From: Kiritimatiellia bacterium
GTDB lineage: Bacteria; Verrucomicrobiota; Kiritimatiellia; RFP12; UBA1067
Length of the DNA: 37,659 nucleotides
Reading direction: 5' to 3'
NCBI GenBank assembly: GCA_017514235.1
Contig: JAFWKK010000027.1
Span: 1-37,659, forward strand
Of the stretch, positions 15,184 to 24,518 are shown piece by piece (the stretch's first letter is position 1; each line of letters opens with the position of its first letter). The notes beneath the pieces were generated by a model. The model did not search any database and was not told the origin of the DNA. It was given only the letters and a program-made list of their open reading frames with translations. The position numbers and the translations under genes were made by a program.

Positions 15184-17445
15184 ATGATAAACGCAGTCAG
15201 CGAGCAGTTCAACAAATTCGTCAGCTTCGCCCAGGAGCAGATCGACAGGGGCGAAAGGAAGGCCATCGCGACCAAGGGCGATGTCCTGGTCGGCGGCGGC
15301 ACTCCGCTCGAAGAGCGCAGGATATCGACGACGGACAACGGCGACTTCGTCTGCAAGTCCATCTTCCGCGGACGGGACACCAAGAAGGTCAACAACGAGG
15401 TGCGGGCCCTGTTCATGAAGACGATCGCCGAAATGTTCGGCGGCGAGCGCAACATCCCCGAAAGCGTCAAGACGGCGATGCTTCTCAAGGACTACGGCAA
15501 GGGCAAGCCCCTCACCGCGCGCCGCATCATCGAAGTCAGGGACGCGATAGCTGGCCTCGGCCGCGCCAACTGCTTTGACAAGGCCAACGACCCGGACGGC
15601 CAGCTCGCGAAGAAGGCCATCGCCGCCGGCTACACGCGACTTGATTTCGGCAGGCTCAACACTGCGGCCAACCTCCTGGTCGCAACGAAGGGCCTGAGCT
15701 GCAAGGAAGCGATGGAGCAGGTCATTGACAAAGATTCTGCCGCCAACCGCGCCATGAAGGCCGGCTCGCTCTACATGAAGAACGCCGCGTCCTTCGCCCG
15801 CGGAGTGGGCTTCCACGAGCATGTCGCCCTGGACGATGCGCGGAACAAGGAGCTTGCGGAGTTCAACGCATCGGAAGAGTCGGCGGCCCAGCTCTCCGAA
15901 ATCGCCGACAACCTCGAGTACAAGTACAGGAACATCCTGCACGACGCCGACGACCTCCTTGTCGCGGCAAATCTGCCGCCCGAGACGCTCGCCAGCCTGC
16001 GCACGGCCGTAGCGGCGGTTGCGGACAAGTTCAAGGGTGTCTCGACCGACATCGCTTGCGGCGCGCTAAAGGGCAGGGAAGAGATCGACAAGCGGCTGTT
16101 CCATGTCAGCCTCGGCGAAATCAACACCGAAGTGCAGAACATCGTCACCAGGCTGCGCGACGCCGCCAGCCAGAATCCGGCGATCGAGGAATTCAGGCAG
16201 TACCTCGCCGAACACTTCAAGGATGCCGGCTTGTCGTACGACAAGCTCGTAGCGACATACAAGCATGCCGTGGCGCGCGAGATGACCGGCCCCGCGGAGA
16301 TGAAGCTCCGCGCCGCCGCCGCAGACGCAGGCCTCGCGACCGGCACGCAGGTTTCGATCCCGAAGGCGATAATCGGCGACCTCTATGCGTTCCTCGACGT
16401 CAGCCCCTTCACCCAAATGAGGAAACTGGAGAGTTTCTGCGGCCATCTCGAGCAGTACGGCGACGCGAACCTCCGCTTCAGCGACGAGCAGAAGGCCAGC
16501 CTCAAGGCGCTTGTCGAGAAGACCTTCGGCAGCGGCCCCAAGGCCGACAAGGTGCTCAACCGCCTCGTCGAACGGTTCGAGACGGCGTTCTTCGCCGAAC
16601 AGATGCTCTCGCCGACGGACTTCGGGAAGGAGCCGCCCAAGCATCCCGACTTCATCTTCAACTACATCATGAAGAACCCCGAGATGCTCCATGCGTTCGA
16701 CCCCGGCTTCAAGCTCGACACGAAGGAGGATGCAGAGGCCGTCAAGCGCGCCATCAAGGAACTGATGCTCGCCGACCTCAACGCGAAGCTCGCGGACCCG
16801 GACACCGCCAAGATGACCAGCCTCTCCTCCGGCCTGATGCCCCAGGCGGTGCGCGAGTACAACGTCGGCTACGTGACGTTCAACGGCGGGCTAATTCCCA
16901 ATGCGGAGCTCGGCACCAAGTTCCCGCAGCTCCATGCGGAATCCGACACCCCCATGCGCAAGGGCTATGCCGAGTTCCTCGAAAAGAAGTTCGACGCCGC
17001 CCACAAGAAGATGCGCCAGACGGTGTCGTTCGCCTGCGGCATGGCCAACGGGCTCGGCGGGACGATCGACAGCATGATCGAGTACGGCGGGGAGAAGAGC
17101 AACATAAGGGGCGTCTCCCGCGAAGAGCTCAGGGGCAAGGGCGTCATAATGTCGTCCGCCAGCTTGCTGCCGGAAGAGAACTACAACATCAAGATCGAGG
17201 AGAGCGGCGACGTGAAGATCACCCTCACGCACTTCGTCCGGAACAAGGTCAACAACGTCATCACCGAGGACGGAATATACAGTCCCAGGATCCTCCTCAG
17301 CCAGCCGAACGACGCCCCCGTCGTCGGCGCCACGAAGGTCGTCGTGACGATGACCGTCAGGAACGCGTCCGACGCGGAGCTCGGCGACGCGATGCCCGAG
17401 TTCACCATCGACGACATCCGGCAGGAGGAGCAGTACGATGCTTGA
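15184..17445 (+). CDS. Large protein of unknown function (753 residues), helix-rich
   Basis: I do not recognise this family. The start is supported by AAAGGGAGTG just upstream. There is no signal peptide and no membrane helix. Most of it looks alpha-helical (for example residues 65-500, with many Ala/Glu/Lys-rich stretches). A more conserved-looking core follows (LMPQAVREYNVGYVTFNGG, about 555-573). The last 80 residues look beta-rich (NYNIKIEESGDVKITLTHF; KVVVTMTVRN). Residues 2-29 match the N-terminus of the 100-residue protein at 19558-19854 at 12 of 28 ungapped positions (F..F..FAQ.....G..KAIA). That suggests a shared targeting or secretion signal. It could be an exported effector-like protein; this is inference. 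Confidence 0.8.
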   Translation: MINAVSEQFNKFVSFAQEQIDRGERKAIATKGDVLVGGGTPLEERRISTTDNGDFVCKSIFRGRDTKKVNNEVRALFMKTIAEMFGGERNIPESVKTAMLLKDYGKGKPLTARRIIEVRDAIAGLGRANCFDKANDPDGQLAKKAIAAGYTRLDFGRLNTAANLLVATKGLSCKEAMEQVIDKDSAANRAMKAGSLYMKNAASFARGVGFHEHVALDDARNKELAEFNASEESAAQLSEIADNLEYKYRNILHDADDLLVAANLPPETLASLRTAVAAVADKFKGVSTDIACGALKGREEIDKRLFHVSLGEINTEVQNIVTRLRDAASQNPAIEEFRQYLAEHFKDAGLSYDKLVATYKHAVAREMTGPAEMKLRAAAADAGLATGTQVSIPKAIIGDLYAFLDVSPFTQMRKLESFCGHLEQYGDANLRFSDEQKASLKALVEKTFGSGPKADKVLNRLVERFETAFFAEQMLSPTDFGKEPPKHPDFIFNYIMKNPEMLHAFDPGFKLDTKEDAEAVKRAIKELMLADLNAKLADPDTAKMTSLSSGLMPQAVREYNVGYVTFNGGLIPNAELGTKFPQLHAESDTPMRKGYAEFLEKKFDAAHKKMRQTVSFACGMANGLGGTIDSMIEYGGEKSNIRGVSREELRGKGVIMSSASLLPEENYNIKIEESGDVKITLTHFVRNKVNNVITEDGIYSPRILLSQPNDAPVVGATKVVVTMTVRNASDAELGDAMPEFTIDDIRQEEQYDA

Positions 17446-17456
17446 CCCGGGCCGGA

Positions 17457-18110
17457 TCAGGGATGCGCTTTCGCCGCGGTGAAGCGGGCGCGGCGGCGAA
17501 CGCGCGAACCGGCGCGGACAGCTTTCATGCAGCATTCGAGGGGAGAGCTTTCGGCGCACAGGCGGCCGATTCCGGCCGCGGTCGCCTCGAATGTGTCGCA
17601 AGAGTCGGCGCTGAGCCCGAAGTCGCCGCCCGTACTGATTGCGTCTTGGTTGGCGGCGAGGAAGCGGAACTGCCAGTTGTACTTCGAAGACTGGTGCGCG
17701 ATCCTGTCCCGGACGTCCTTGCGCGTGAACGAGCGGGAGGCGTTTTCGAAGCCGTCGGTGAGTATGGCGAAGACTATCCCGTCCGGGCGCTCCGACTCGG
17801 GCATCGCGGCGAACTTGCGTCCTAGCTCGTCGATGCCGATGCAGATCGCATCGTACAGCGCGGTGCATCCGTCGGTCGTGTATCTCTCGAGCGTCTGGGG
17901 CGCTCCGTCGTTGAGGTCCGCGGAGTCGACGAGATGTTTTACATCCGAGTCGAATTGCCACACGTCCAGCAGCGTCTTGTCCTCTTCGCTCTTGAGCCCG
18001 CCGAAGAAATTCTTGAGCGACTCGATCGTGGCGGAGCGAATGGATTCCATCGATCCGGACGCGTCAAGTACGAGCGCGACGTGCATGTAGCTCTTGATTT
18101 CTGCGTTCAT
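17457..18110 (-). CDS. Von Willebrand factor A domain protein
   Basis: A 217-residue cytoplasmic VWA protein. The metal-ion-dependent adhesion site is intact: DASGS (Asp16, Ser18, Ser20), the Thr in TTDGCTALYD, and the Asp in FAILTDGFENAS. VWA proteins of this compact type bind partners through a divalent metal and sit in many systems, from chelatases to tellurium resistance. The start has AAAGGAA 8 nt upstream. A TATACT box at 18175-18180 would give it a promoter divergent from the next gene. The basic tail (VRRRARF) may be an extension. The partner is unknown. Confidence 0.85.
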   Translation of the reverse strand: MNAEIKSYMHVALVLDASGSMESIRSATIESLKNFFGGLKSEEDKTLLDVWQFDSDVKHLVDSADLNDGAPQTLERYTTDGCTALYDAICIGIDELGRKFAAMPESERPDGIVFAILTDGFENASRSFTRKDVRDRIAHQSSKYNWQFRFLAANQDAISTGGDFGLSADSCDTFEATAAGIGRLCAESSPLECCMKAVRAGSRVRRRARFTAAKAHP

Positions 18111-18174
18111 GTCAGTGTTCCTTTCTTTTGTCCTGGTGCCTGGCCCGAAACGCCCGGGCTTTCAAGGCGCTGGC

Positions 18175-18261
18175 AGTATAGTATAAAAACGCCGGCAAAA
18201 ACCGTCGCGCGGCGAAATGTCCATTCCCGATGGACGCGGCGTTTTCCTCCTGTGGTATAAT
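18175..18261. promoter_or_regulatory. Divergent promoter region: VWA gene and helical regulator gene
   Basis: On the minus strand TATACT (18175-18180) serves the VWA gene. On the plus strand TGGTATAAT (18253-18261) lies 6 nt before the ATG at 18268. The two transcripts start about 90 bp apart and could share an operator. Confidence 0.5.
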
Positions 18262-18267
18262 ATGTGC

Positions 18268-18939
18268 ATGCAGATGACCGATGGCATGGAAGTTGATTTT
18301 CCGCCGATTCCGCCGCCGCCGCCGATGACGGACGTTCAGCGGGAAACGGCGGAGGCGCACATCGCGGCGGCCATCGTCCGCGAGCGCGAGAAGCGCATGG
18401 TGCGCAACGCGATGGCGGCGGCGCTTGTCCCAGCGTGCGTGGCGGAACCTGACGCGTGTGGGGGCATGGAAGAGTGCGCCATGCCGGGCGAGCGGCAACG
18501 GCTGAAGAAGAGAGCGCTGGCGTCGGACGACTTCAAGAAGATCTGCGAGCTGCCCGACGGCAAGCCGCGTCCGCCGAACCTCCACTCTGCCAACCTTTCG
18601 TTCGCGGCGCGCGTCATAATCTTGGTGCGCGACAGGTTCTCGAACAACGCCCCAGCCGTCTACAAGGCCGCGTACCTGAGCCGCAAGACGTACTCGGCGA
18701 TAATATCGGACGAGAACCACGTCGTCTCGAAGCGGACTGCCGTGCAGCTGGCGTTTGCGCTTCGCCTGTCGCGCGCCGAGGCCGACCTGCTGCTGCACGC
18801 GGCCGGCTACCACCTTTCCCGCAGCGTCGTGGAGGACATGATCTTCGACGCCTGCCTTGAGGCGAAGATATACAGGCTGGAGGACGTGAACAGCCTCTTG
18901 ATCGCCCATGACCGCCGTCCGTTCTCTCCGCAATGCTGA
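18268..18939 (+). CDS. Helical, HTH-like protein of unknown function
   Basis: A 223-residue protein. The N-terminal half is a proline-rich stretch (FPPIPPPPP) and a charged helix. The C-terminal half (about residues 110-220) has a repressor-like helical pattern: AAYLSRKTYSAIISDENHVV, then VQLAFALRLSRAEADLLLHA and a DMIFDACLEAKIYRLEDVN stretch. I recall this C-terminal domain from many Firmicutes proteins, where it follows macro or other domains and looks like a lambda-repressor-like fold. The start is leaderless (6 nt after the -10 box). Its stop overlaps the phosphatase start, so the two are co-translated. A regulatory role is an inference. Confidence 0.72.
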   Translation: MQMTDGMEVDFPPIPPPPPMTDVQRETAEAHIAAAIVREREKRMVRNAMAAALVPACVAEPDACGGMEECAMPGERQRLKKRALASDDFKKICELPDGKPRPPNLHSANLSFAARVIILVRDRFSNNAPAVYKAAYLSRKTYSAIISDENHVVSKRTAVQLAFALRLSRAEADLLLHAAGYHLSRSVVEDMIFDACLEAKIYRLEDVNSLLIAHDRRPFSPQC

Positions 18940-19442
18940 TTGCCGCGATGGAAGACATGAAGATACTCTTTGTCTGCCACGGGAACATCTGCCGCAGTCC
19001 GATGGCGGAATACGTCATGAAGGACATGCTGGCGAAGGCCGGTCTCTGCGGCGTCACGGTCGAGTCCGCCGCGCTGCACACCGACGAGCTCGGCAACGAC
19101 ATTCACTCCGGCACGAGGCGCGAGCTGACGAAGCACGGAATCCCGTTCGCGCCGCGCCGCGCATGGCTTCTCTCGTCCGGAAAGCTCCGCGAGTACGACC
19201 TGGTCGTCGGCATGGACGCCGCGAACATGCGCGACTTGCGGCGCCTTGCTGGCCCGGCGGACGCGCATAAGCTCCGCAGGCTCCTTGATTTCGCCGGCGT
19301 GGACCGCGACGTCGCCGACCCCTGGTACACCGGCGACTTCGAGGCGACATACGCCGACATCGTCGCCGGCTGCTCCGCATTGCTGGATGCATTGCGCCGG
19401 CGCCTAGCCGAGCCGCCGCTAGCCCCTGCCGTTTTGACGTGA
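18933..19442 (+). CDS. Low-molecular-weight protein tyrosine phosphatase
   Basis: A 169-residue LMW-PTP. The P-loop CX5R is VCHGNICRSP (Cys15, Arg21 from the first ATG) and the general-acid loop is DVADPWYTGDFEATY, both canonical. It removes phosphate from tyrosine or related residues. The start is ambiguous: ATG at 18933 overlaps the upstream stop, while 18948 and 18957 give versions nearer the usual N-terminus (MKILFVCHGN). Coupling to a DNA-binding-like protein, rather than to a tyrosine kinase or capsule locus, is unusual. Confidence 0.9.
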   Translation: MLIAAMEDMKILFVCHGNICRSPMAEYVMKDMLAKAGLCGVTVESAALHTDELGNDIHSGTRRELTKHGIPFAPRRAWLLSSGKLREYDLVVGMDAANMRDLRRLAGPADAHKLRRLLDFAGVDRDVADPWYTGDFEATYADIVAGCSALLDALRRRLAEPPLAPAVLT

Positions 19443-19480
19443 AGGGCCAATTGCAAAGCCTCTTCTTGCCATGATTTTCA

Positions 19481-19510
19481 AACCACTAAATACACCAAAT
19501 ACACCAAAGT
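19481..19510. repeat. 9-bp-period repeat (TACACCAAA)
   Basis: AACCACTAAA then TACACCAAATACACCAAAG: a short degenerate tandem of a 9-bp unit, related to the ACACGAAAT elements at 19936, 20687, 33264, 35552 and 37120. It lies in the 115-bp gap between convergent genes. Confidence 0.6.
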
Positions 19511-19557
19511 TCCGCGCCAAGTCCGAAGGGTGCTTTCGGGGCCCCGCAGATTATCTG

Positions 19558-19854
19558 CTATGCTATGGCCTGCGATAGTTTGTAGTCGACAACGGTCGGG
19601 ATGTCCTGCGTAAGGTCAATTACGAGACGCTGCGTGAACGAGGCCGAGCCGAAGAGCACCGGGGCGTCCTGGCTCGACTGCGGCGCGGCCAAGTCGGCCG
19701 AAATCGTCTGCGTGATCGTCGCGGTCTTTCCGTCTTCGGACATCTGCTCGTCTACAGCGGCGATGGCCTTCTCGTCGCCCGCTTCGAGGCTCTTCTGCGC
19801 GAACTCCGCGAAGTTGCGGAATACGTCGTTGTAGCTGTTTATTCCCAGAGCCAT
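19558..19854 (-). CDS. Small protein sharing its N-terminus with the 753-residue protein
   Basis: About 98 residues from the ATG at 19854 (an earlier ATG at 19863 sits directly on the AAAAGGA ribosome site, so the second is better spaced). Residues INSYNDVFRNFAEFAQKSLE and GDEKAIA align without gaps to the start of the 753-residue protein at 15184. The remainder is beta-rich (TATITQTIS; TQRLVIDLTQDI) and has DAPV, also present near the end of the large protein. No signal peptide, no membrane helix, no known domain. It may be a small paralogue, chaperone-like partner or substrate of the same system; inference only. Confidence 0.65.
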   Translation of the reverse strand: MALGINSYNDVFRNFAEFAQKSLEAGDEKAIAAVDEQMSEDGKTATITQTISADLAAPQSSQDAPVLFGSASFTQRLVIDLTQDIPTVVDYKLSQAIA

Positions 19855-20016: not shown

Positions 20017-20331
20017 TCAAAGGACTGCGGCGGCACGTTCTGGAACAAATTCGGGAATAAGCTTCTTGATCTTCGACCATACACCGCCGGAGGCTACGCC
20101 GAGATCATAGTTCGACTGAAGGTTCAGCCAGAACTGCGGCTCCATCTTGAAGTACTGCCCGAGACGGAGCGCCGTGTCGGCGGTTATGGCACGCTTGCCG
20201 CGCACTATCGCGTTGATGCGCGGCGCCGGGACATGCAGATCCAGCGCCAGACGAGTCTGGCTGATGCCCAACGGCACAAGGAACTCCTCCTGGAGGATCT
20301 CGCCCGGATGTATCAAGTTTCTGTTGCGCAT
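20017..20331 (-). CDS. higA: HigA-family antitoxin (XRE-type, VapI-like)
   Basis: A 104-residue HTH protein with the HigA signature: HPGEILQEEFLVPLGISQTR, LALDLHVPAPRINAIVRGKR, and DTALRLGQYFKMEPQFWLNL. It neutralises the HigB toxin and represses the operon. The start at 20331 has a strong AGGAGG ribosome site (TAAAGGAGGTAACT) and lies 10 bp after the higB stop. The toxin-first gene order is the normal one for higBA. Confidence 0.92.
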   Translation of the reverse strand: MRNRNLIHPGEILQEEFLVPLGISQTRLALDLHVPAPRINAIVRGKRAITADTALRLGQYFKMEPQFWLNLQSNYDLGVASGGVWSKIKKLIPEFVPERAAAVL

Positions 20332-20341
20332 AGTTACCTCC

Positions 20342-20620
20342 TTAATGATAGTCCACAATTTCAACATTCTCGGCGTTAGTTCCGCTCCAGCTGAAACATA
20401 CGCGCCATTGGTCGTTGATGCGCACGCTCCACTGACCGGCTCTGTTCCCGCGAAGCTGCTCAAGCCTGTTCCCCGGCGGCACTCGAAGCGTCTCAACCAT
20501 CGTTGCAGCCGCCAGCATGTCAAGCTTGCGCAGCGCCACACGGGCAATCGACGCAAACCTCCGGTTCTCGCCTGTCTCGTACAGCTCCTGCGTATCCTTA
20601 CACTTGAACGAAGAAATCAT
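20342..20620 (-). CDS. higB: HigB-family toxin (RelE/ParE superfamily mRNA interferase)
   Basis: A 92-residue HigB toxin: MISSFKCKDTQELYETGE, then RKLDMLAAATMVETLRVPPG, and the C-terminal strands QWSVRINDQWRVCFSW. HigB cuts mRNA on the ribosome. It starts 6 nt after its -10 box, so the mRNA is probably leaderless; translation of the toxin without a Shine-Dalgarno site, against a strong one for higA, could help keep antitoxin in excess. Confidence 0.92.
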   Translation of the reverse strand: MISSFKCKDTQELYETGENRRFASIARVALRKLDMLAAATMVETLRVPPGNRLEQLRGNRAGQWSVRINDQWRVCFSWSGTNAENVEIVDYH

Positions 20621-20686: not shown

Positions 20687-20787
20687 GCGGCGGCAAATCC
20701 GTCGCAGGGGATTAACCACGAAATACGCGAAAAGTCGGATACTGTATCAACCGAGCCGTATCAATGAGCTTTGACCCTTTTGAGCCA
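20687..20787. repeat. Dispersed intergenic repeat, copy 2
   Basis: GCGGCAAATCCGTCGCAGGG and ATTAACCACGAAATACGCGA, then 33 bp later GCTTTGACCCTTTTGAGCC. It matches copy 1 at 19936 in the same block order. It fills most of the gap between the higBA promoter and the giant surface gene end. Confidence 0.75.
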
Positions 20788-20826
20788 TTCGGTGCATGTC
20801 CCCGGCGAGCCGCGGCCCGGTATTCC

Positions 20827-23800
20827 TCACTCTTCCGGGTCTGGCTCCGGCTCTTCCAACGGATCTTCTTCCGGGTCCCCGGGGATCGGGAACTCAATGA
20901 CGGCCCTGAAGAACTTGGCCGTGACATCGGTCGGGCTGAAGGTCGCGGTCACGGACTGCGTGACGGCCCCTTCGGCCGGTTCGGTGTCGAAGATCGAATC
21001 GCCATCGCTGATGTAGACTATCTCGTCCGAAATCAGGCTGAAGTCGTCGGCGAGATCATCCGTGCCATAGATATGGAGCACGCCGCTAATGAAGCCCAGC
21101 GGCGACTGGCGGTCGAGCCGCACCGTGATGGAGATGACGCCGTTGGTGACCGCAATGCCGGTGGCGCTGATGGTGCCGCCCGGATTCGCCGCATTGATGG
21201 AGCAGTTGAGCACCCAGCACTCGTACAGCTTGTCCGTGGCGGCGGTGTCATTGCCAAGGGCGTCGATGTCGCCCTGCGTGAAGCCGTTGGCCAAAAGCCA
21301 GTCGATGAGTCCTTGATCCGTGATTTCGTAGCCTTCGGGATCGTTGTAGCTCGGAGGGGTTGCGTACGCGACGACGTCTATGTCGAAGTCAGGCATCGTG
21401 TAGGTGAAGGACACGGCGTTCGTGGTCAAGAGGACGGAGTAGTCCTCGTCCTCGTGCTTCATGATTGTGACGGACGGCTCGTAGCCCTCGGCAAAGCCGG
21501 AGACGTTGATGACGAGGTTCGTGCCCGGAACGACTTTCTGCTCGTTCTCAACGCCCGTGACCGTCATGCCGTTCGCCGTCACGAAGACGGTCGGATTCCA
21601 GCATGCCTCGTAGACGTCGCAGTCAATGCCATTCATAACATCCGTGTCCTTCTTCACGTAGCAGTCTCCGGCATGGGCCGCATCGACGGAAACCTTGGCA
21701 CCGTTGACGAGCGAGACGCCGCGGGAGGAGGCCACGTTTCGCATCAGCCAGATTGTGGTAGCGGCACCTTCGCCGTCGTTCGCGACGAGCGTGACGCCGG
21801 TCCCGATCTGCGCGCTACCATGCGCCGTGGTGTTGATCTTGGCCTTCACGCCCTTGGCGACTTCAATGCCGCCCAGGAATTTCGTCGTGCCATAGTCGAT
21901 GGTCTTCACGAGGGCGTTCGCGGAAATCGTCGTCTTGTTGGTGATGGTGAACGACGCCGAGAGACTATCGTCGATGATGCTGATGCCACGGAACGTGACG
22001 TCGCCCAGAATCTCAAAGGCGCAGCCGATCGTCATGTCGTTTTTGTCCTTGCGCTCGTTGAAGAGGGCAAGGCCGTTCACGCTGAGCGAACCCGTCGCGC
22101 CGGAGGCCACGGACACGGCGCGTCCTTCGTCGCCGTAGAACTGCAGGATTGGCTGCGTCGCGTTGGCGGCACGGACGAGCGTGACGTTTGCGTTGCTGAG
22201 CACCAGCTCCTTGCAGCGGTCGGAGCCGAAGATGGCGGCCTGGGCGTCGTTCGTGAAGGTTACGACCGTGTCCTTGGTCGGGACGTAGCCGAAATCCCAG
22301 TTGTCCGCGGCGTTCCAGTTGCCGGAATCGCCGCCGATCCACGTCTCGGCCGTGATGGCGACAGCCGTATAGGTCTTGACCGTGCCATCCGTCGCGTCCG
22401 TCAGCGCCAGACCCGGAGCCGTAATGGCGTAGGTCGGCGCGGAGAGCGCCTCGTCGAACGCAATCGTGCCGGGCTCGGCGAAGGCGAAGGTCGCCGTCGC
22501 GGACGGCCCCATCACCTTGTAAGTGTTGCCGGCCGCGAGCGCGTCGTCCGCCACGAAGGTGGCGACATTGCCTTCGACCGTCGCGAAGTTCAGGCCGGGC
22601 GTCGCCATGCCATGATAGGACGCGACCGTAGCATCGCCCTTGTTCACGCCCTGCAGCGTGACCGTGCCGCTCTGATGCTTGAGGAACCGGCCGACCGTGG
22701 TCTCGCAGTCCGCGATGGTGGTGTTCAGGCCGACGTAGCCGACGATGGCACCGTATTCGGAATTCGACGAACCGGTCGTCATCGTGCCGTTGTTCTGGCA
22801 GTTGGAGATCGTCACAGCCGATCCACCCTGCGTGATCATGGCAATGCCGCCGCACTTGTTGTTGGCGAGCGAGGTCATGTTCACATTGTTCGTGCAGCTG
22901 TCGATCACCGTGCCGCTCGTGGTGTAGCCGGAGATGCCGCCGAAGCCCTTCGAGCAGGAGACCGTGCCGGCAAGCGTGGTCAGATTGCGCAGCGTCGAGC
23001 CATTGGCAACGCCGACGAAAGTCGCGCCAGATTCCTTTGTGCTTGCGGTCGTGTCTGCCGCGAAGCGGTCACCGGCGTACGCGATCTTGAGGTTGCAGAT
23101 CGTCGCCTGGTAGGCGGAGTTGAAGAACCCGCAGTAGTCGAGGCCTTCCGTTTCGCTGGCGGGATTCCCGGCCACGCCCACCATCTGGAAGTTCGACACC
23201 GTGAAGTTGCCGCCGTCATACGTGCCGCGGAAGGCGCCGTTCTGGAATTCATCGGTGTTGTAGATGTCCTTGCCGTTCGGAATGCCGATGCCGGGCCAGG
23301 GCGCGTCCATGGCGATGTCAGCGGTCTGGAGGAAGCAGAGACCAAAGCAGTTGGTGGTGTCCGCGACCATCGCCTGCAGGGCCTGAAGGGCCGCGAGGTT
23401 CGGAATCTCGAACGGATTCTCGGCGGAGCCGTCCTGGCCGGCGGTGGCCGTCTGAGGGAAGTACTTGGCGATGCCAGACACCCCCTCAAGCGAAATCGCG
23501 GAAGAACTCCCCGTGACGGAGACCTCGATGGTGCGGTAGCCCGTGTTGCCCGTCAGGACGACTTCAAGTCCCTCGGGCGCCTGGAACTGGTACTCGCCGT
23601 CCGCCGGCACAAGGGCCGCGCCGGCAACGCCGTTGGTGGTGAAGGATACGGAATCGAACCCTTCGCCCCACGTGAGCGTGTAGACCGACAGGGCCGGATC
23701 GAAGTCGGAAAGGACAAGGTCGTCCACGCTGCCCGTGCCGCTGAACGCGAGGCTCGTAATGGGGGCGCCGGCGCTGAGGGCGTAGAAGGTGTCCACGTCG

Positions 23801-24393
23801 TCTGCGGTCTTGCAGAGATCGGCGGCGTCGGTGCCGTCGCAGTAAACCTGGTATCCGGCGGCGGTGGCCTTGACCACGAGACGGTGCCACTCGTCAATGC
23901 CGATGGTCTTCGTGAGGACGAATTCCTGCGCCGTGCCGTCGGCGGCGTTCTTTGCGTAGACGCAGAGGTTGGTTTCGCTGCCGCTCTGGCTGATGCGCGT
24001 GTAGACGATAATCTTGGCGTCAGCGCCCGCTTCGGGCGCGGGGGTGCCTGCGGGGTAGGGAACCCCCTTCACCAGGATGTCGGCGTAGATGGTGGACGCG
24101 GAAGGCGCCGTCCGGTCGGACTGGAGATAGCGGACGATCGGGGCGTCGGTGTCGAAGGAAAGGACGTTCGTGCGGCTCGTCTTGTCGAAAGACGACGGAA
24201 GATTCGGCGACCGGGGGAGGTCGGCGACGCTCGCATCGGCCTCGATGACGGCTTCGACCAAGTTGCTCCAGCAGGCGTCCGCAAGCGGACTATCCCCTTC
24301 GAAGTCCGTGGAGCCGGGATAATACTCGGCCTGGGCAGGTGCGACGAGGCCGACCATGGCGGCGGCGACGGCAAGATGCTTCAGCGTATGCAT
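20827..24393 (-). CDS. Giant secreted/surface protein with LamG-like, GLUG-like and passenger-like regions
   Basis: An 1188-residue protein with a Sec signal (cleavage after APAQA, residue 22). Residues about 24-230 look like a LamG/concanavalin-type lectin fold. About 310-560 hold GLUG/beta-helix-like repeats (GTYDGGNFTVSNF; GGISGYTTSGTVIDSC). About 690 has the NWNAADNW motif seen in autotransporter passenger repeats. Residues 1028-1046 have a LIDWLLANGFTQGDIDAL motif, followed by AKFFRAVIEFP (about 1157). It ends in a Glu/Pro-rich tail. No membrane anchor or beta-barrel is visible, so how it attaches is unclear. Start: AAAAGGA about 8 nt upstream of ATG 24393. A role in glycan binding or adhesion is plausible but unproven. 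Confidence 0.85.
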   Translation of the reverse strand: MHTLKHLAVAAAMVGLVAPAQAEYYPGSTDFEGDSPLADACWSNLVEAVIEADASVADLPRSPNLPSSFDKTSRTNVLSFDTDAPIVRYLQSDRTAPSASTIYADILVKGVPYPAGTPAPEAGADAKIIVYTRISQSGSETNLCVYAKNAADGTAQEFVLTKTIGIDEWHRLVVKATAAGYQVYCDGTDAADLCKTADDVDTFYALSAGAPITSLAFSGTGSVDDLVLSDFDPALSVYTLTWGEGFDSVSFTTNGVAGAALVPADGEYQFQAPEGLEVVLTGNTGYRTIEVSVTGSSSAISLEGVSGIAKYFPQTATAGQDGSAENPFEIPNLAALQALQAMVADTTNCFGLCFLQTADIAMDAPWPGIGIPNGKDIYNTDEFQNGAFRGTYDGGNFTVSNFQMVGVAGNPASETEGLDYCGFFNSAYQATICNLKIAYAGDRFAADTTASTKESGATFVGVANGSTLRNLTTLAGTVSCSKGFGGISGYTTSGTVIDSCTNNVNMTSLANNKCGGIAMITQGGSAVTISNCQNNGTMTTGSSNSEYGAIVGYVGLNTTIADCETTVGRFLKHQSGTVTLQGVNKGDATVASYHGMATPGLNFATVEGNVATFVADDALAAGNTYKVMGPSATATFAFAEPGTIAFDEALSAPTYAITAPGLALTDATDGTVKTYTAVAITAETWIGGDSGNWNAADNWDFGYVPTKDTVVTFTNDAQAAIFGSDRCKELVLSNANVTLVRAANATQPILQFYGDEGRAVSVASGATGSLSVNGLALFNERKDKNDMTIGCAFEILGDVTFRGISIIDDSLSASFTITNKTTISANALVKTIDYGTTKFLGGIEVAKGVKAKINTTAHGSAQIGTGVTLVANDGEGAATTIWLMRNVASSRGVSLVNGAKVSVDAAHAGDCYVKKDTDVMNGIDCDVYEACWNPTVFVTANGMTVTGVENEQKVVPGTNLVINVSGFAEGYEPSVTIMKHEDEDYSVLLTTNAVSFTYTMPDFDIDVVAYATPPSYNDPEGYEITDQGLIDWLLANGFTQGDIDALGNDTAATDKLYECWVLNCSINAANPGGTISATGIAVTNGVISITVRLDRQSPLGFISGVLHIYGTDDLADDFSLISDEIVYISDGDSIFDTEPAEGAVTQSVTATFSPTDVTAKFFRAVIEFPIPGDPEEDPLEEPEPDPEE

Positions 24394-24459
24394 TGTGTTG
24401 GTCCTTTTGGCGGGGGAAAGGGCTTATTGACCTGTAAGCCTAATTCTCCTTGGGCAGAA

Positions 24460-24468
24460 ATTATATCA
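24460..24468 (-). promoter_or_regulatory. Extended -10 promoter of the giant surface gene
   Basis: TGATATAAT on the minus strand, about 66 nt before the ATG at 24393; this gene has a true leader with a ribosome site. Confidence 0.5.
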
Positions 24469-24518
24469 AAGAAAAAAGCTTGATGCGTCAATGCAGCCAA
24501 TCCGCCCGTTGCATGGCT

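Follow-up and report, generated by a model that had tools for sequence, protein, structure and literature searches.

Two proteins encoded in a 37,659-nucleotide stretch of DNA from a Kiritimatiellia bacterium (contig JAFWKK010000027.1; the whole stretch, G000:C16:1-37659, is hereafter called the window, and G000 is its own genome) start with similar residues, which raises the questions of whether this similarity is real and what the shared N-terminus does. The proteins are P_big, of 753 residues, and P_small, of 98 residues (Table 1). A first-pass annotation of this DNA had taken the N-terminus for a secretion or targeting signal, or for the mark of an effector and its partner, and this interpretation as a whole was partly supported. 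The N-terminus behaves as expected of a delivery module, it belongs to a family, and a type III secretion system (T3SS) is present in the same genome. From sequence and gene context, we consider it very probable that it is the start of a delivery domain of about 125 residues belonging to a multi-copy family of T3SS substrates (effectors) in Kiritimatiellae-type gut bacteria. P_big itself is most likely a T3SS substrate, because the domain tracks the non-flagellar T3SS and P_big orthologues are found in T3SS operons.

Conserved N-terminal domain of P_big and P_small

The 12 identities in 28 ungapped columns that had been reported between the two N-termini were reproduced, and none of 5000 shuffles reached this number. 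P_small scored 31.5 bits against a family profile built from 30 N-termini without P_small, whereas the best of 20,000 shuffles scored 12.0 bits. A 24-row profile, from which the six closest P_big-type rows had been removed, found P_big at 141 bits and P_small at 31.5 bits, and phmmer with P_small as the sole query found other family N-termini at an E value of 2.5e-7. The shared N-terminus is real, as judged from these shuffle tests and profile scores. According to the alignment, it is the start of a conserved N-terminal domain of about 125 residues with the motif GKPLTARRI. In this alignment (A1, 30 sequences), 18 columns were invariant, including those of the motif except its K, which was nearly invariant. 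In P_big, the domain reads as a helix with the pattern F..F..FA, a KAIA region, and then MFGGE..IP..V..AM...DYGKGKPLTARRI.

On the minus strand, P_small can be read from 19863 (101 codons) or from an internal ATG at 19854 (98 codons). Its paralogues begin at the position of the internal ATG (MALDINGYN...), and the coordinates 19558–19854 originally assigned to it are therefore right. No hydrophobic signal peptide was seen in either protein, in keeping with the first-pass annotation: the maximum 9-residue hydropathy in the first 40 residues was 1.11 and 0.52 in the window proteins, a value of 2.0 was reached by none of the 30 family N-termini, and three presumed exported comparison proteins gave 2.31–2.67. 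Both proteins were confirmed to be unrecognised, with no Pfam or NCBIfam match over the cut-off. The Pfam scan of the two gave no family at an E value of 0.05 or better (one row at 0.059), the NCBIfam scan gave nothing above the cut-off, and the PHROG scan gave no match for P_big and a best E value of 0.013 for P_small. The DAPV resemblance between the two proteins turned out to be due to chance: among 16 P_big-type proteins in an alignment, only the one from the window contains DAPV, which is also absent from the three paralogue tails aligned with P_small.

Further proteins with the motif, for which the first-pass annotation had proposed to look, are present in the same genome and in related ones. 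The domain gave 283 matches in 75 of the 162 genomes of the order, with 1–17 matches per domain-positive genome and open frames of 145–1385 residues among those listed. G000 carries four N-domain genes beyond P_big: a cluster of three on contig 26 and a single gene on contig 19. A 1511-residue protein on contig 26 (L012:8406-12941, G000:C26) contains a paralogue C-terminal module at residues 1060–1209 and, by eye, a divergent N-domain-like start. On contig 19, a 940-residue protein is encoded directly downstream of an N-domain gene (L013:7762-10584, G000:C19); its GDRHWDN and later IDNDASF motifs resemble PI3/4-kinase-like active sites, and its best E values were 0.04 in Pfam and 0.17 among PDB sequences, with no NCBIfam row.

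A survey of named genomes gave 75 loci from the best 80 of 198 stretches, with records of G000 or of a closely similar genome possibly omitted. The domain loci among these best stretches were all titled as metagenome-assembled genomes, and their named sources were mostly ruminant gut. The labels were uncultured bacterium, Kiritimatiellae, Lentisphaerae, Verrucomicrobia, and Victivallales, with a few Desulfovibrionaceae, Desulfovibrio, and Mailhella. Domain genes in L100, L101, L115, L127, and L129 lie on contigs binned as one of the last three, and a CesT-like gene adjoins the domain gene in L100 and L115; horizontal transfer together with the T3SS or misbinning are possible explanations. In viral contigs, a pattern scan gave no relative.

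T3SS and CesT chaperone genes in the same genome

A type III secretion locus, another feature that the first-pass annotation had suggested seeking, is present in G000. SctC, SctJ, SctW, TyeA, and SctV exceeded the NCBIfam cut-offs, and SctL and SctN exceeded the Pfam cut-offs; the T3SS locus, on contig 43, also contains SctD and a needle-like protein, both below cut-off, and a CesT protein. The single FHIPEP (PF00771) match of G000 scored 859 bits as SctV (cut-off 692) versus 618 bits as FlhA (cut-off 772). Flagellar export substrates were rejected for G000, because its export-gate protein scores as SctV and not as FlhA. PF00771 matches were found in 22 of 59 relatives, G000 included, and six of these proteins were typed as five SctV and one FlhA (G041).

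Eleven CesT loci were found in G000 and none in 14 control genomes. Three of the eleven are near N-domain genes, two at distances of 49 and 76 base pairs (bp) and the third inside the same cluster, and two are in the T3SS locus. The other six lie elsewhere (C44:14249, C66:31212, C60:12514, C29:2416, C19:224, and C26:42946), and each may mark another effector.

Co-occurrence of the domain with SctV and CesT

Among the 162 genomes of the order, 59 had both the domain and an SctV-type match, 16 the domain only, 17 SctV only, and 70 neither (Fisher test, 1.7e-14, uncorrected for kinship; the 76 SctV-type genomes exclude G041, with its FlhA, and include 15 below-cut-off fragments not tested individually). 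When only SctV matches over the cut-off were counted (61 genomes), the respective numbers were 48, 27, 13, and 74 (8e-11, likewise uncorrected). CesT was found in 92 of the genomes and in 73 of the 75 domain genomes, and the domain and CesT counts correlated (Spearman 0.88). At genus level, the domain, SctV-type matches, and CesT have an identical distribution, each being present in the same 12 of 33; in two of these 12, g6 and g29, the SctV matches consist solely of split fragments.

Across the 346 genomes of the class, G199 and G200, which belong to one genus of another family, were the only ones outside the order with the domain. G199 had an SctV match of 881 bits, over the cut-off, and G200 had a partial match of 1.7 bits per position. 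The 15 other class matches outside the order were full-length and below cut-off (578–631 bits). Bits per position, computed for five of them, were 0.86–0.93, and 0.89 for G041; the 15 were taken as FlhA by their likeness to the G041 scores. On this assignment, the only two domain genomes of the class outside the order would hold its only two SctV-type matches there. The SctV model also matched in six of six Desulfovibrionaceae, Desulfovibrio, Mailhella, and Victivallales genomes, four of them over the cut-off; these six were picked for having the domain, and binning errors are possible.

Gene neighbourhoods of the P_big family

Same-strand neighbours of a P_big orthologue in G131 (RUG12612) are SctC on one side, followed farther out by SctW and SctV, and a second, divergent family-like gene on the other. 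This second side also holds a CesT gene that scored 34 bits (PF05932, cut-off 22) and four small genes, of which two have needle-like (PF09392) matches well under the cut-off. A further CesT-like frame, detected with a home-made profile, lies between the orthologue and SctC. One contig of this genome carries two P_big orthologues (L174/L175, G131:C7), one beside SctC and the other at the head of a translocon-like operon. Such a run, in which the orthologue is followed by a 243-residue protein, SycD, SseC, and a 613-residue SctB-like protein, was found at four loci: the second G131 copy, G030 (L070/L093), G035 (L069/L090), and RGIG2266 (L092). In L070, the only run tested, SycD scored 127 bits (TIGR02552, cut-off 104.8) and SseC 75 bits (PF04888, cut-off 30.2), and the 613-residue protein gave a weak SctB match, below cut-off. 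Four tandem small proteins follow the translocon-like genes (L070:16514-18943, 168–203 residues; L174:13874-16322). They are related in two pairs, two of the L174 copies have PF09392 matches far below cut-off, and they are possibly multiple filament or needle subunits.

In RUG14463 (L067/L084), a CesT gene (49.5 bits) is followed by a gene for a 1236-residue protein and then by the P_big orthologue. The 1236-residue protein (L067:6118-9825) has a DUF3626 match and is a candidate effector.

Of the 19 P_big-family loci, five are in T3SS operons (two being the copies of one genome), one is near CesT, and 13 are neither, as judged within the available flank, which is short in some. Among 129 non-redundant domain open reading frames (ORFs), at least 700 bp of flank was available downstream in 81 and upstream in 104, and a CesT-like gene lay within 300 bp downstream in 18 and upstream in 20 of these. 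Nine of nine example CesT-like genes passed the Pfam cut-off. The operon and chaperone linkage thus holds for the family and the orthologues, not for P_big of the window itself.

Architecture of P_big and fold matches of its C-terminal domain

P_big orthologues from 15 other loci were aligned over their full length, with 31–64% identity. In the proposed architecture, the N-domain is followed by a long middle of helices and then by a C-terminal alpha/beta domain. In the P_big model, residues 23–63 mostly had a predicted local distance difference test (pLDDT) score below 50, and residues 484–753 modelled by AlphaFold2 had a pLDDT of 89.6 and a predicted template modelling (TM) score of 0.88.

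By Foldseek, the C-terminal domain resembles, over domain size, uncharacterised giant-virus proteins from Klosneuvirus KNV1 (A0A1V0SI19), Bodo saltans virus (A0A2H4UVC2), Satyrvirus, Edafosvirus, and Tupanvirus (probability 0.97–1.00; E values 9.5e-5 to 5.7e-3, two of five below 0.001; TM 0.33–0.49). These proteins share 7–13% identity with it, and no sequence relative turned up when viral contigs were scanned with a pattern. The EspG/VirA fold (PDB 3pcr, 4fma, and 3eb8) gave weak, non-specific matches at ranks 1 and 19 among the 50 PDB rows listed, over 229–285 alignment columns. These matches recurred with the full P_big model, again weak and not specific, and the Pfam scan of P_big gave no EspG/VirA family at an E value of 0.1.

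Proposed delivery route and alternative explanations

The existence of the family, the way it co-occurs with genes for the T3SS and for chaperones, and the operon linkage in relatives are observed directly; secretion, binding by a chaperone, and the nature of the target cell are inferred. Residues of about 1–20 would serve as the export signal, and the flexible residues of about 20–63 would be bound by a CesT-type dimeric chaperone, which would hand the protein to the SctN ATPase and the SctV export gate. The protein would then travel through the needle and an SseC/SctB-type translocon to enter a probably eukaryotic target cell, where its variable remainder would act. Rumen protists are a plausible target, because Gammaproteobacteria T3SS and other secretion systems have been suggested to play a role in resisting protozoal predation (PMC8941083) and, in the sheep rumen, methane yield correlates with how abundant T3SS genes and transcripts are (PMC5549432). 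The authors of the latter study write that the T3SS genes assigned by software to Sharpea and Akkermansia likely come from unidentified ruminal species (PMC5549432).

Several observations weigh against substrates of the T3SS. No SctV-type match was detected in 16 of the 75 domain genomes (27 when only matches over the cut-off are counted), and these 16 are no less complete on average (85% vs 84%); 14 of them do have CesT. Conversely, 17 SctV genomes and 19 CesT genomes have no detected domain. The co-occurrence statistics ignore shared ancestry, and the CesT-adjacency counts, obtained with the home-made profile, stand without a background rate for random genes. The 13 P_big-family loci with no T3SS or CesT gene in the flank examined count in the same direction; the window, in which no chaperone or T3SS gene adjoins P_big, is of this kind.

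The four loci with the order P_big, 243-residue protein, SycD, SseC, and SctB-like protein, together with the orthologue that adjoins SctC, would also suit a family, or at least a P_big, that is part of the T3SS machinery, for example a secreted protein associated with the tip or the translocon; in other T3SSs, the needle-tip gene sits at the position that some P_big orthologues hold in the translocon operon. We regard this as improbable, since a core part is expected to be near-universal and single-copy, but the domain has up to 17 matches in a positive genome and frames of widely varying length, 8 of 16 relatives with family and export-gate matches have no match past the first ~240 residues of P_big, and most P_big-family loci lie away from T3SS genes in the flank examined. 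Still less credence, indeed very little, is given to a domain unconnected to secretion, with a cytoplasmic housekeeping or defence role, that merely shares ancestry with T3SS-bearing genera. Genome counts do share ancestry, and several P_big neighbourhoods without T3SS genes contain housekeeping genes by eye, but the domain, SctV-type, and CesT genus sets coincide in the order, the same pattern is seen again in another family of the class and in the Victivallales, Desulfovibrionaceae, and Mailhella bins (six of six, chosen for the domain), and CesT-like genes directly adjoin many members. The constant N-domain, variable body, many copies, CesT neighbours, genus-level T3SS co-occurrence, and, in some genomes, a place in the translocon operon are more in keeping with effectors than with a component of the machinery or a housekeeping protein.

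Taking effectors as the reading, we tentatively raise a wider possibility, which we hold to be doubtful: an undescribed superfamily of T3SS effectors with one N-terminal delivery domain, through which Kiritimatiellae, Victivallales, and Desulfovibrionaceae might manipulate gut protists such as rumen ciliates, with one body fold common to giant viruses of protists, and which might have moved between unrelated bacteria near the same eukaryotic targets.

Origin of P_small

The first-pass annotation had offered two views of P_small, as the partner of P_big or as its cut-down version. Residues 4–37 of P_small match the first ~34 residues, and residues 38–101 the last 64 residues, of family proteins of about 915 residues (L167, L168, and L169, from G104, G108, and G139); this two-ended match is observed directly. 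The C-terminal part matched with a best E value of 7.5e-21 and was 69% identical to G104:C98. P_small thus probably derives from a ~915-residue family gene by an in-frame deletion and is probably not a partner: it looks like a cut-down family member, as had been guessed, but its parent would be a ~915-residue paralogue and not the 753-residue protein. Roughly 800 codons would have been lost in frame from the middle of the gene. The deletion event is only inferred, because the parent allele was not found. Among the matches in the 162 genomes, no second short protein matching both halves was seen; other short frames match just one half, and the few alignments spanning the junction are weak and within long proteins.

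The ratio of nonsynonymous to synonymous substitution rates (dN/dS) for the C-terminal part was 0.32–0.44 against the three intact paralogues, versus 0.18–0.33 among those three. This part is not obviously decaying, so a function is possible. P_small might be a working mini-protein in which both parental ends are useful, for example a chaperone decoy or a competitor at the export gate; its open frame, coding-like codon score, the purine-rich GGGGAAAAGG immediately 5′, the only somewhat raised dN/dS, and a G113 stub in which an N-terminal start is, by eye, likewise followed directly by a family-like C-terminal tail would agree with this. We nevertheless consider it unlikely, since no other short two-half match was seen in the same search and in a G117 stub a CesT-like start seems, by eye, to be followed by the tail of a family member, a sign of random end-joining within effector arrays. 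In the G113 stub, the family N-terminus runs, by eye, into a C-terminal tail like that of the contig-19-type members, and in G031 a P_big orthologue has a short N-terminal stub as its neighbour, also by eye. Effector arrays seem often to shed gene middles.

Other genes of the window

The first-pass annotation had noted VWA, HTH, and phosphatase genes between the two proteins. That these genes belong with them, or that the two are an effector and its partner, was not supported: no such arrangement was seen in six distinct neighbourhoods of orthologues that lack both a T3SS operon and a CesT gene (L068, L071, L073 = L098, L083, L085, and L094), compared by eye over the first 60 residues per gene, with some short flanks. 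The divergent pair at 17457–18939 consists of a VWA-like protein (−), just below the PF00092 cut-off, and a protein with an HTH-like C-terminus (+), with a weak phrog_4031 match; the pair has no link to the present finding. A HigB-like toxin and HTH antitoxin pair, both over the Pfam cut-off, lies at 20017–20620 (−). A 1188-residue protein with a hydrophobic N-terminus is encoded at 20830–24393 (−) and has no Pfam family at an E value of 0.05; the ORF at 20764–24483 (+) is its antisense.

Table 1. Coordinates of P_big, P_small, their parts, and short stubs in related loci
Feature	Position	Strand	Basis or remark
P_big, 753-residue probable T3SS substrate	15184..17445	+	ORF; orthologue alignment; orthologues within T3SS operons
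P_big conserved N-terminal domain, residues 1–130	15184..15573	+	Alignment A1; structure model
P_big C-terminal alpha/beta domain, residues 484–753	16633..17445	+	AlphaFold2; Foldseek
P_small, 98-residue family member, probable internal-deletion derivative	19558..19854	-	101 codons if read from 19863
P_small N-terminal part, residues 4–37 of the 101-codon reading	19753..19854	-	phmmer domain 1, L167/L168/L169
P_small C-terminal part, residues 38–101	19561..19752	-	Last ~64 residues of the same paralogues
Short stubs with N-terminal start and/or C-terminal tail of the family, or CesT-like start	L171:7229-7528; L179:11629-11832		By eye
Short stubs of the same kind	L172:6999-7214; L073:2553-2780		By eye

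Significance and comparison with known systems

Uncultured Kiritimatiellae-type genomes, whose named relatives are mostly metagenome-assembled genomes from the ruminant gut, encode a T3SS and, with it, many candidate substrates that form a coherent set recognisable by one domain. Which bacteria own a T3SS and which proteins they may inject can thus be addressed by a one-domain sequence search, which also yields chaperone/substrate pairs. In the portions of the literature on T3SS with Kiritimatiellae that were consulted, no such effector family was described.

The family resembles Class I T3SS effectors, which depend on CesT-family chaperones, in showing no Sec-like N-terminus by hydropathy, and in having an N-terminal region poorly ordered in the model, a CesT-family gene next to part of its members, co-occurrence with SctV, and a modular body. 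It differs from them in sharing an N-domain of about 125 residues with the nearly invariant GKPLTARRI; to our knowledge, the N-termini of known type III effectors are generally not conserved from one effector to another. A constant delivery N-domain with variable bodies in one genome is found in proteins with MIX-type marker domains of the type VI secretion system and in the N-termini of polymorphic toxins. This family has the same layout, but it is linked to the T3SS and CesT chaperones.

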